From Pontiella desulfatans (GTDB lineage: Bacteria; Verrucomicrobiota; Kiritimatiellia; Kiritimatiellales; Pontiellaceae), in NCBI RefSeq assembly GCF_900890425.1, contig NZ_CAAHFG010000001.1:930001-994000 (forward strand): a DNA stretch of 64,000 nucleotides, read 5' to 3'. Below are positions 19,981-48,117 of this stretch, piece by piece. The notes beneath the pieces were generated by a model, which was not told where the DNA came from, made no database searches, and saw only the letters and a list, made by a program, of their open reading frames with translations. The position numbers were made by a program, and so were the translations under genes. Position 1 is the first letter of the stretch, and each line of letters opens with the position of its first letter.

Positions 19981-20568
19981 TTATCTTTCGGAGTGCGGCA
20001 CTTCTGTGCCGCTTTCCTCCCATGTGGGCTTGAATTCATCAGGTTCGTTCAGTTGGTCGAACTTGAACGATGCAATCTTCCTTTGTTCCGGCGTGGCAAG
20101 GTTGCGTTCGTTCCAGCCCGCGGAGCAAAACGGATACAAGTTGGCAACCGGAACCAAACCGTGGTGAACCGGATTGTTCGTTACATAGTTCAACCGGGAG
20201 AAATAGCTTTTTTCAAAGGTCAGGCATTTGTCCCAATACTGGAACCAGACTTTCCTCCCGGGATATCCATCAAGTTGGTTTAGCAATTTGGCGGATTCCG
20301 AATGAAGGTGCTGGATGAGTTTGCGGATGGAGCCGGTTTGCGGGGAAATTCCAATCCAGTGGTAATGGTTGGAGAAGAGTGCCCATGCTCGGATTTTCCA
20401 GCCCCGGTATTTGATGACGTCGAATAAGGTTTTTTCCAGAAGCTTGAGTCGTTCATTACCTCTGAACAGATGTTGCTTGTGAAGCGTACCTGCCGTCACC
20501 ATGTATGTCGTATTCGGGACGAAGACATGGTGGGGGGCGTGGTGCCAATCTTTGGGATGGGTGGGCAT
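19981..20568 (-). CDS. REP-associated tyrosine transposase (RAYT, Y1 family)
   Basis: 195 residues from ATG 20568. The Y1/HUH signature is present: ALFSNHYHWIGIS (HUH-like 'NHyH' motif in the typical 'v.MpNHvH' position), then FQYWDKCLTFEKSYFSRLNY followed by VTNNPVHHGLV, with the catalytic Tyr candidate in the 'YI..NPv' helix and the RAYT-typical 'W..y.D..i....f...l.YI..NPv'. The C-terminal residues GTEVPHSER are encoded by the left REP end. RAYTs cut and join single-stranded REP hairpins and are domesticated relatives of IS200/IS605 transposases. The gene appears intact, so it may be active. The longer start at 20619 would read through the right REP end and is less likely. Confidence 0.88.
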   Translation of the reverse strand: MPTHPKDWHHAPHHVFVPNTTYMVTAGTLHKQHLFRGNERLKLLEKTLFDVIKYRGWKIRAWALFSNHYHWIGISPQTGSIRKLIQHLHSESAKLLNQLDGYPGRKVWFQYWDKCLTFEKSYFSRLNYVTNNPVHHGLVPVANLYPFCSAGWNERNLATPEQRKIASFKFDQLNEPDEFKPTWEESGTEVPHSER

Positions 20569-20623
20569 TGTTTTGGAATAGGCGGAACGCTTTGGAAAGC
20601 GGCACAGGAAGTGCCGCACTCCG
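19989..20623. mobile_element. RAYT-REP unit inserted in the lipoprotein gene set
   Basis: The left end 19989-20017 (CGGAGTGCGGCACTTCTGTG...) and right end 20594-20623 are inverted copies differing by a single inserted base, each able to fold as a seven-bp GCGGCAC/GTGCCGC hairpin. They bracket the RAYT gene on both sides. The unit lies between the COG3014 gene's start and the LpoB gene's stop, genes that are otherwise expected to be contiguous. Both ends overlap the reading frame of the transposase or its upstream extension. The layout is that of a minimal REP-RAYT element. Confidence 0.82.
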
Positions 20624-21322: not shown

Positions 21323-22237
21323 CTACTTCAAAAGCTCGCCAATGATCACGTCGAAGTCCGGGTCCCGGATCAGGAGGGTGATCTTGTCGGTGCTGAACAG
21401 CTTCTTTTTCTTCAGGCTCTGGATGCTCTTCTGGATGTTTTCATTGCTTCCGAACTGGGACAACTTCTGGCAGAGTTCGGACTTTTTATCGCCTTCCCAG
21501 ACAATGCCCATTTCGCGCAGTTCACCCAGGGTGTCCCTGTCGTTGAAGAGTTGCTGGAGCGAAGCATTCTGTTCAATGCGCCGTGCATCGCCGCTGATCA
21601 GGTCTTCGGCAAACTGCTTATCGGTCATGAGCTGCTGAACCGAGTCGGCGGAGATCACGTTTTCAAGGTGTTGCATCCCTTTGGCCGGATTGCTGACCAC
21701 CCGCGCCGTCGCCGCTGCTTGCGATTCCCTGCCATCGCGCTTCGCAACCACGTAGGCGGTTTCATAGACCGCCCGGCGCGAAAAACGGCCGAAAACGGCC
21801 TTTTCAGTTCCGGGGATGGAGGTGCCGGTCATGCCGACCAGGAAAAGGTCGCCGAGCCAGAACAGGAACACCAGCGAGAACAGGCCGATGCCGAGGTTGA
21901 TGGCGCTCCCGCCGAGGGCGATGTGCCACGGATGTTTATAATCCTCCTTCTCTTCCTTGTGCTTCTGCTCATCGCGCATGTTCGTCATGATGACGTGAAA
22001 GACAAAGGTGATGACGATGAACGTTAATCCTGCAATGACGGGGATGGTAACGATTCGCGGACGGTGGGCCACTTCGCCCAGCCAGGCTCCCAGGTAGCGC
22101 CCCGCCAGGAAGGCCATGCCGTAGGCGAGTACAACGCGAACGATCCCCAGCAGGGAAAGAAGGAAGCCCTTCTGCCAGCCAGCCAGCAGGAAAAAAAGAA
22201 GAACGATCGCCGCAACGATATCGATTACAAAATGCAT
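21323..22237 (-). CDS. CvpA-like membrane protein
   Basis: 304 residues from ATG 22237, chosen because it starts the family-like VIDIVAAIVLLFFLLAGWQK followed by GFLLSLLGIVRVVLAYGMAF; longer starts run into unrelated sequence. CvpA family members have 'D........G...G...G.......' in the first two spans, with four spans in all; here about four are visible (residues 3-20, 25-45, 60-82, 120-140). The C-terminal 160 residues are soluble and helical (MTDKQFAEDLISGDARRIEQ), an extension beyond the usual CvpA. E. coli CvpA is needed for colicin V export and envelope stress resistance; what this version does is unknown. Confidence 0.65.
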   Translation of the reverse strand: MHFVIDIVAAIVLLFFLLAGWQKGFLLSLLGIVRVVLAYGMAFLAGRYLGAWLGEVAHRPRIVTIPVIAGLTFIVITFVFHVIMTNMRDEQKHKEEKEDYKHPWHIALGGSAINLGIGLFSLVFLFWLGDLFLVGMTGTSIPGTEKAVFGRFSRRAVYETAYVVAKRDGRESQAAATARVVSNPAKGMQHLENVISADSVQQLMTDKQFAEDLISGDARRIEQNASLQQLFNDRDTLGELREMGIVWEGDKKSELCQKLSQFGSNENIQKSIQSLKKKKLFSTDKITLLIRDPDFDVIIGELLK

Positions 22238-22320
22238 ACGAACCCCCGATAAATTGATCTCTAGTAAAAGATAGTTTGTTATATCCAACGCCGAAAGCCT
22301 AAAATGGTAGCTCTTTATTA

Positions 22321-22341
22321 CGTACTGCGTATTTCGTATTA
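22321..22341. repeat. Three CGTATTN heptamers left of the four-helix-bundle gene
   Basis: CGTACTG-CGTATTT-CGTATTA is three tandem seven-base units. They are the reverse complement in type of the CAATACG units right of the next gene, so the gene is bracketed by heptamers facing in opposite directions. Confidence 0.6.
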
Positions 22342-22360
22342 CTCTGATTGGGGGACTGGG

Positions 22361-22822
22361 ATGCATTATGTGGAGTGGGAGGCCAATGTTCCTGCAATTA
22401 TTAAGGAAGACGTGCTGTGGAAGATGAAGGTCTATCGACTTTCGCTCTTTTTGTCGAACGTCGCCTGGAAGGATGTGTCGAAGCTTTCGAAGGATGGCAG
22501 AACGAAATCGCTTTCCAACCAACTCTATCGGGCCGTGGGATCGGTGGCGGCCAATCTTGAGGAAGGATATTCGAAACACAGCTCAAAAGATCGTGCTCGT
22601 TTCTATGAATACTCCCTTGGTTCAGCCCGGGAAAGCCGGGGCTGGTATTATCGGGGACGCCATATCCTCGGCGAAAAAGTATTCGAACATCGGGCATGGT
22701 TGTTAACGGAAATCATCAAGATGCTCCTGACCATCGTTCCGGAGGAACGCGGATGGGTGCTGCATGAGGAAATGGAAGAATATCAGGTTGCAAGTCCCTT
22801 GGAGGATGAGGTTCCCTTTTAG
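22361..22822 (+). CDS. Four-helix-bundle protein (23S rRNA intervening-sequence protein family)
   Basis: 153 residues from ATG 22361, which has GGGACTGGG before it. The pattern VYRLSLFLSNVAWKDVSKLS, SLSNQLYRAVGSVAANLEEG, SSKDRARFYEYSLGSARESR and a last helix of EHRAWLLTEIIKMLLTIVPE is the S23/IVP four-helix bundle ('...Q..rA..Sia.NiaEG..r....e...fl.iA.GSl.E'). Such proteins were first noted inside 23S rRNA insertions and also include Avd, the DGR accessory factor; here no rRNA or reverse transcriptase is near, so it is one of the stand-alone copies of unknown role. Heptamer repeats flank it on both sides, facing opposite ways. Confidence 0.85.
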   Translation: MHYVEWEANVPAIIKEDVLWKMKVYRLSLFLSNVAWKDVSKLSKDGRTKSLSNQLYRAVGSVAANLEEGYSKHSSKDRARFYEYSLGSARESRGWYYRGRHILGEKVFEHRAWLLTEIIKMLLTIVPEERGWVLHEEMEEYQVASPLEDEVPF

Positions 22823-22885
22823 CAATACGCAATACGCAATACGCAATACGCAATACGCATTACGCAATACGCATCACGCAAAACG
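22823..22885. repeat. Nine tandem CAATACG-type heptamers
   Basis: Starting at the base after the four-helix-bundle stop, CAATACG is repeated five times exactly and is followed by CATTACG, CAATACG, CATCACG and CAAAACG. It ends next to the CGGAG ribosome binding site of the following gene. Reverse-oriented units occur on the other side of the gene at 22321-22341. Confidence 0.9.
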
Positions 22886-22898
22886 GAGTACGCCACGC

Positions 22899-23603
22899 AT
22901 GGAATTTAAATATGCCGCCGAACTGAAGAAGCAGTTCACCTGCTATGGCCATTTCTATGAGCTCGTGCTCATGAACGGGGAAACGGCCAAATGCCGCAGT
23001 GTGCTCGAGATTGTCGATACCTCCATCCCCCAGGAAACCCCCTCCGACATATCGGAAATGGAGCCGGATGTGGTGGTGATCATGATGAATCCGGGATCGT
23101 CGCACCCGAAGGACGATGCGCATGTGGTTGGGCGGATCGAATATCCCCGGCCTGGCGGCGGTAACCGCAAGGAGCTGGTACTGACGCAACCCGACAACAC
23201 GCAGTATCAAGTGATGCGCGTTGCGGTTTCGCAGGGGTGGAGGCATATCCGGGTACTCAATCTTTCAGACCTGCGCGATCCCAAGTCCGGCAAGTTCCTG
23301 CAGAAGGTGGACGCCTTGGCCGGAATCATCGGCGGCCATGTGCATAGCCTGTTTTGTCCCGAGCGGAATGAGGAGTGCGCCCACTCGCTCAAACGGAAAA
23401 ACCGCACCCCGATCCTGCTGGGGTGGGGGCAGGACCTGGGCTTGCTTCCCCTGGTGGAACAGTGCCTGGGGCGGATCGAGGGTGAGCCGACCTGTACCGT
23501 GGCCTCCGATGTCCACCCCTTGCTCAACGCCCATCCGAGCCCCATGCTGCAGAAGAAAAAAATCCTGTGGCTCGAAACCATCGTCGAGTCCCTCGGGAAC
23601 TGA
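22899..23603 (+). CDS. DUF1643-like protein
   Basis: 234 residues from ATG 22899, with CGGAG about ten bases upstream. The conserved VVVIMMNPGSSHPKDDAHVV segment corresponds to the DUF1643 'i.lNPs.A' core, followed by TQYQVMRVAVSQGWRHIRVL with NLSDLRDPKSGKFL ('a...gy....v.NLfa.r....'). The later PILLGWGQD is also family-like ('v..aWG'). It is soluble, with no signal peptide, and resembles uracil-DNA-glycosylase-fold proteins in outline, but no activity is established. It begins right after the heptamer array, so the array could affect its expression. The next gene starts 37 bases on. Confidence 0.65.
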   Translation: MEFKYAAELKKQFTCYGHFYELVLMNGETAKCRSVLEIVDTSIPQETPSDISEMEPDVVVIMMNPGSSHPKDDAHVVGRIEYPRPGGGNRKELVLTQPDNTQYQVMRVAVSQGWRHIRVLNLSDLRDPKSGKFLQKVDALAGIIGGHVHSLFCPERNEECAHSLKRKNRTPILLGWGQDLGLLPLVEQCLGRIEGEPTCTVASDVHPLLNAHPSPMLQKKKILWLETIVESLGN

Positions 23604-47840: not shown

Positions 47841-48117
47841 GTAAAATCATCCTGTCATCCAATGATCCTGTCATTCCATTATCCTGTCTTGTGAATTTTG
47901 CGCGCAATTGCTGCTCAATTGTGTGGCCATCCAACACCTGCGATGCCTTGCTGGGCGCACGCCGTGCGCCTGGGCGGACGGCGTCCGCCCCTCCACGAAA
48001 GAACCGTGCGGCGGCTCGGATGGAACCTCGCCCTCCAATATGTGGAGCGGGCTTTCTTGCCTGCTCATGGCCGGGCTGGGCAGGATTCTGGCAAATTGAT
48101 TTGGAGCAAAATGATTC

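Follow-up and report, generated by a model that had tools for sequence, protein, structure and literature searches.

S23 genes, which encode four-helix-bundle proteins, are widespread, and the function attributed to them so far is a guess from rRNA intervening sequences (IVSs). In Coxiella burnetii, the 23S rRNA IVS has a single S23 open reading frame (ORF) and 28 bp terminal inverted repeats, which form a stem cut by RNase III, and it is described as a selfish element (PMC4990558). Two to three tandem heptamers (GACAGAT) precede this ORF, and strains differ by one heptamer; in the part of that paper drawn on here, heptamers are reported just upstream of the ORF, and just for Coxiella (PMC4990558).

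Heptamer repeats are also known from cyanobacteria and Xanthomonas, with their origin unexplained. Rehm et al. (2015, PMC4692102) described intergenic G-rich heptamers in Nostoc and in Xanthomonas, whose genomes each have about 70 inverted pairs; the G-rich sequence lies on the coding strand after stop codons and on the non-coding strand before start codons. They judged phase variation unlikely and found generally no association with mobile elements; the term S23 is absent from their text, and no link to S23 is made (PMC4692102). In the Beggiatoaceae, TAACTGA heptamers occur as direct repeats near start codons, and a role in post-transcriptional regulation has been proposed (MacGregor 2015, PMC4679880). 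A general link between S23 genes and heptamers was not found in the open-access PMC literature; an earlier description in a subscription journal is possible.

The REP/RAYT systems (REPtrons) have a comparable layout: a single gene has a short inverted repeat on each side, and many gene-less inverted pairs occupy intergenic gaps.

An S23 gene between inverted heptamer arrays

The window analysed here, a stretch of 64,000 nucleotides of Pontiella desulfatans, has one S23-type gene between inward-facing heptamer arrays. This arrangement had been proposed in a preliminary description and is confirmed by direct reading, with three units on the left and ten on the right, where nine had been counted. 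The right array begins, as had been noted, at the base directly after the stop codon (TAG, 22820-22822). The features of the locus are as follows:

21323..22237, minus strand: gene for a colicin-V-like membrane protein, a host neighbour and conserved flank of the insertion site (same flank in relatives)
22314..22341, plus strand: left inverted heptamer array of three CGTAYTN units and one degenerate outer unit, the putative left terminal inverted repeat
22342..22360, plus strand: G-rich leader from the left array to the start codon, GATTGGGGGACTGGG, with homologous leaders at other loci
22361..22822, plus strand: S23 / 23S_rRNA_IVP four-helix-bundle gene, 153 aa, assigned from HMMs, homologue starts and fold
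22823..22892, plus strand: right inverted heptamer array of ten NARTACG-type units, the putative right terminal inverted repeat
22899..23603, plus strand: DUF1643-like gene (below the Pfam cut-off), a host neighbour present in 26 of 28 genomes of the genus

The left array reads CGTACTG (22321-22327), CGTATTT (22328-22334) and CGTATTA (22335-22341), preceded by the degenerate outer unit TTTATTA (22314-22320). The right array consists of five CAATACG units (22823-22857) followed by CATTACG (22858-22864), CAATACG (22865-22871), CATCACG (22872-22878), CAAAACG (22879-22885) and the degenerate GAGTACG (22886-22892). TRF assigns period 7 to both arrays; an unbiased scan of the 64-kb window for periods 4-12 at a strict threshold detected the right array only, and a second strong period-7 array is absent from the window.

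The enclosed gene matches PF05635 (57.1 bits; cut-off 33.8) and TIGR02436 (63.5 bits; cut-off 24). The longest ORF starts at 22304 and runs through the left array; in homologues, the protein starts at the residue that corresponds to codon 22361. Most likely, therefore, both arrays lie outside the gene, and the ORF from 22304 is probably not the actual protein. The leader probably holds the ribosome-binding site.

We read this feature, with a probability of roughly 0.6, as a copy of a small mobile (selfish) S23 element whose terminal inverted repeats are heptamer arrays and which has MITE-like derivatives; it is probably a stand-alone form of the 23S rRNA IVS element. Like that element, the window locus has an S23 ORF bracketed by terminal inverted repeats, but it lies between protein genes rather than inside 23S rRNA (no Rfam match at 14-32 kb of the window, and the neighbours are protein genes) and has dispersed S23-less copies. 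Its arrays share the intergenic position and the polarity of the heptamers of Rehm et al., although the word lacks a G-tract for quadruplexes. The Beggiatoaceae repeats are likewise abundant intergenic heptamers but are described as direct repeats. As in REP/RAYT systems, one bracketed gene is accompanied by gene-less inverted pairs; S23, however, is not a Y1 transposase, none lies between the window arrays, which hold S23 only, and the repeats are arrays of a heptamer that differs from lineage to lineage. Insertion sequences with MITEs also have terminal repeats common to full and gene-less copies (here the four-unit ends of the Xanthomonadaceae and, in the genus, the heptamer word), but none of the copies read showed a transposase, recombinase or reverse transcriptase between its arrays.

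A RAYT-like gene does lie elsewhere in the window (19981-20619, minus strand; 78.5 bits to NF047646, cut-off 80), and this family has 27 matches in the window's genome. No specific link between this gene and the heptamers was found. RAYTs as mobilisers of the arrays were rejected, since 24 of 28 genomes of the genus have RAYTs whether arrays are present or absent.

The arrays abut the S23 stop codon and the region where the downstream gene starts. This placement, together with the one-heptamer difference before the S23 ORF of Coxiella strains, would suit a phase-variable switch in which array length tunes expression of S23 and of the downstream gene. We consider such a switch the least probable of the readings weighed here, given that arrays flank many unrelated genes without S23 and that phase variation was judged unlikely for the Xanthomonas and Nostoc heptamers.

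Period-7 arrays at S23 genes across bacteria

Arrays near S23 genes were surveyed with a lag scan that covers any tandem period and assumes no word, an array being defined by at least 11 of 14 matches at lag 7. Within the genus, 44 of 55 S23 loci have a period-7 array at most 150 bp from the gene, compared with 2 of 55 controls about 1 kb away, these loci being partly orthologous and not independent. Across phyla, arrays are present at 57 of 80 S23 loci, chosen by protein similarity only as best matches to one alignment, compared with 6 of 80 control windows. The gene with its inverted arrays is hence a recurrent unit across bacteria. These counts strongly support the earlier suggestion that the protein and the repeat make up a single small cassette, and they run opposite to the outcome that was to speak against it, in which most related genes would lack heptamers. 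Some S23 genes have no recognisable array.

Near the S23 genes of the genus, lags 5, 6, 9, 10 and 11 give no arrays, lag 4 gives one and lag 8 four. Lags 5, 9, 10 and 11 show no excess at S23 genes; lag 8 is found across phyla at 20 S23 loci and 4 controls. An inverted match between the two flanks (score of at least 32) is present for 66% of 134 genes, against 2.6% for swapped partners and 0% for far windows. At matched positions, the upstream arm has a G facing C in 1019 cases and a C facing G in 369, indicating a constant polarity: on either flank, the G-rich strand is the one that points into the gene.

Different lineages have different heptamer words, but closely related S23 proteins have the same one. 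The share of locus pairs whose heptamers are at least 6/7 alike is 88% at 70-80% protein identity, falls to 30% at 60-70% and is 0.5-5% below 60%. Through slippage and template switching between the inverted arms, the word could drift with the two arms kept in step.

An AlphaFold2 model of the window S23 protein (pLDDT 83) has its best PDB matches in the S23 structures 2rld and 2gsc. It also resembles the Avd-like chains of the diversity-generating retroelement (DGR) ribonucleoprotein 8ub7, with a TM score of 0.79 on target length at 7-9% identity and an E value of about 0.3. The protein thus shares the four-helix-bundle fold of the DGR Avd subunit; no reverse transcriptase was found among the three neighbouring proteins tested against Pfam. 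The S23/Avd-like fold makes nucleic-acid binding by the predicted structure plausible.

The likeness to the Coxiella IVS, the nearest case on record, where a 28-bp stem is cut by RNase III and two to three heptamers precede the S23 ORF, raises the alternative that the arrays act in RNA, forming a stem in an operon mRNA from which RNase III would free the S23 message, and are kept for that purpose rather than for DNA mobility. In the predicted fold of the window transcript, the left array does pair with the right array, but this fold is only weakly better than shuffles (z -1.7). Over the 134 loci, moreover, arm mismatches are G-U 136 times and A-C 137 times, so there is no sign of the selection for RNA pairing that an IVS-like RNA stem would predict. 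The absent G-U excess argues against maintenance of the arrays through RNA-stem selection, and we regard the RNA-level alternative as distinctly improbable.

Insertion sites and gene-less copies in the genus

Related species have the unit at different sites, and the genomes that host it also contain gene-less copies whose ends are the same. The genomes compared are one per species, many of them draft, with contigs that often break at arrays. The window's S23 subfamily occupies four sites. One is the junction of a histidine kinase gene with the gene of its response regulator (HK-RR); the others are the pntA-pntB junction, metH and the gap before the DUF1643-like gene of the window, where pntA, pntB and metH are what we take the adjacent proteins to be. 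The HK-RR site is also occupied in two species from a different family of this order, and several S23-less relatives have just 7-16 bp between the kinase and regulator genes. The protein tree shows the copies at HK-RR as a paraphyletic group, within which those at pntA-pntB, metH and DUF1643 are nested. The word AATACG was kept in two of the relocations, pntA-pntB and DUF1643; copies of the metH clade carry a different one. Mobility, as had been suggested for the window locus, is supported by the tree and by the spread over four sites rather than by any observed movement. Three genomes (G008, G014 and G026) have S23 copies at two sites each, which favours copying over cutting and pasting. At several HK-RR loci (L121, L122, L123/L126), the S23 gene is broken by a stop, a frame break or an internal deletion and the arrays remain, pointing to decay of the gene after insertion.

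The gap upstream of the DUF1643-like gene is an insertion site that, depending on the species, is empty, S23-less or S23-bearing. Three genomes (G001, G021 and G025) have inverted arrays around a core of about 30 bp at the place where the window has S23. At the same site in G009 (L158), a CCAATAA array, a different word, lies about 60 bases before the DUF1643-like gene, as if one heptamer word had been replaced by another in place. No target-site duplication was recognised by eye, and no near-identical empty site was found among those compared.

Array length at one site ranges from 2 to at least 17 units between species. Such variation is what neutral slippage would produce, with the polymerase slipping at the borders of genes and the association with S23 being an artefact of selfish genes that gather in such tolerant gaps as well. 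This account is very unlikely, as it leaves unexplained the inverted symmetry, the period of 7, the word common to the gene and its dispersed copies, and the near-constant four-unit ends of the Xanthomonadaceae copies described below.

In the 8.66 Mb genome of the window, two-unit arrays (NAATACGNAATACG) give 44 matches, compared with 1 for the reversed control pattern. The window's heptamer is found at about 23 places, of which one, the window copy, has an S23 gene. Literally, then, heptamers are common away from such genes, an outcome that had been named as unfavourable to the cassette; but 14 of the 22 other places have the two inverted arms with no gene between them, as (CGTAYTN)n, a core of 2-39 bp and (NARTACG)m, and these 14 pairs read as gene-less copies of the same element. 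As far as they were read, gene-less inverted arrays lie mostly in intergenic gaps. The other twelve PF05635 matches of this genome are without arrays of the window's word; this fixed-word result (12 of 13 S23 matches without the word) looks like a refutation when taken alone and was reversed by the period-7 scan for any word. The S23-less cores mostly share only CTTGA beside an array (17 of 44; shuffles at most 8) and are not evident remnants of S23, a point against the mobile-element reading. A derivation of the solo cores from S23 ends joined by deletion fits some by eye, with only CTTGA statistically solid, and was set aside. Two further arrays of the same genome (L310-L321; C3, 117646 and 134414), of GTGATCC / CACGCCT type, are similar to the heptamer found around metH-site S23 genes in other species; no S23 copy of that kind was seen beside them.

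In this genome, array sites exceed S23 copies with the window's word by about 20 to 1; this surplus and the S23-less cores at the DUF1643 gap would both be expected if the arrays were independent dispersed repeats that serve S23 as a landing pad, the gene spreading by homologous exchange between them and replacing their cores. Against this alternative, several S23-less relatives are without any array at the HK-RR site; each S23 lineage has its own word, and in most phyla of the wide survey arrays sit tight against S23 genes. We therefore consider it rather unlikely.

Dispersed arrays of AATACG/ATTACG words are present in all 12 genomes with S23 flanked by these words (one of them, G001, a degenerate remnant) and in 1 of the 16 other genomes of the genus, G003, as remnants (Fisher p 4e-7, with no correction for phylogeny). 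Since ATTACGC arrays match in either direction, the reversed pattern is no independent control for ATTACG. The closest relatives of array-bearing species may be without both S23 and arrays, so the co-occurrence is not simply that of one clade, although the test is not phylogenetically corrected. For a further word, TTAGTGG, dispersed arrays occur in two of three genomes with TTAGTGG-flanked S23 and in none of five others; the third had no exact three-unit array of the word.

Xanthomonadaceae copies and a possible mechanism

The same system, with sharper ends, is present in another phylum, in Pseudoxanthomonas wuyuanensis and Xanthomonas codiaei. Copies with and without S23 alike end in CGGGACC(GGGGACC)3 / (GGTCCCC)3GGTCCCG. 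Most copies have four units (28 bp) on each side, and the ends vary slightly. An exact pattern of three units has 64 matches in P. wuyuanensis, 8 in X. codiaei and none in six other genomes searched. These repeats resemble those of Rehm et al., including their abundance of inverted pairs.

One S23-less element of X. codiaei (L363, 1499-1745) has an extra right arm inside and is flanked by perfect 8-base inverted repeats, as if it had inserted into a hairpin or were nested in an older copy. Insertion into hairpins was examined as a general rule and rejected as not convincing: L363 is the one perfect case, and the means are 2.86 and 2.46 complementary bases of 8. In the gap between carA and carB of Xanthomonas (L392-L421), three species have an S23 element, and readable S23-less Xanthomonas have other sequence of similar length, about 480-640 bp. 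Since the junctions without S23 hold other sequence and there is no clean empty allele, this gap was rejected as an empty site; it is a possible insertion hot spot.

For the mobile S23 element that we prefer, the following mechanism may be envisaged. The arrays would be the ends of the element, that is, its terminal inverted repeats, and the S23 protein would recognise or bundle them. Replication or repair enzymes of the host could afterwards place a copy of the element in the gaps that separate co-oriented genes, and the gene-less copies would be MITE-like derivatives mobilised in trans. The S23-encoding IVSs would be the same kind of element residing in rRNA. A broader proposal, that S23 drives the movement of a new class of element without a recognisable recombinase, the arrays being self-renewing, fast-drifting ends, and that stand-alone S23 genes, rRNA IVSs and over-represented heptamers form one system, is put forward tentatively, as a possibility with odds clearly below even.

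An S23 element of this kind could account for many bacterial heptamer repeats. With a measurable link between S23 and heptamers, recognition of the word by the protein, joint movement of arrays and gene, and dependence of gene-less copies on S23 all become testable. For annotation, an S23 gene bracketed by arrays provides a simple signature of a small and usually missed element.

Elsewhere in the window, at 47845-47888, there is a tandem array of period 8/16 (AATCATCCTGTCATCC), with no S23 match in that part of the window. Given the period-8 brackets at some other S23 genes, this array may be a related repeat.
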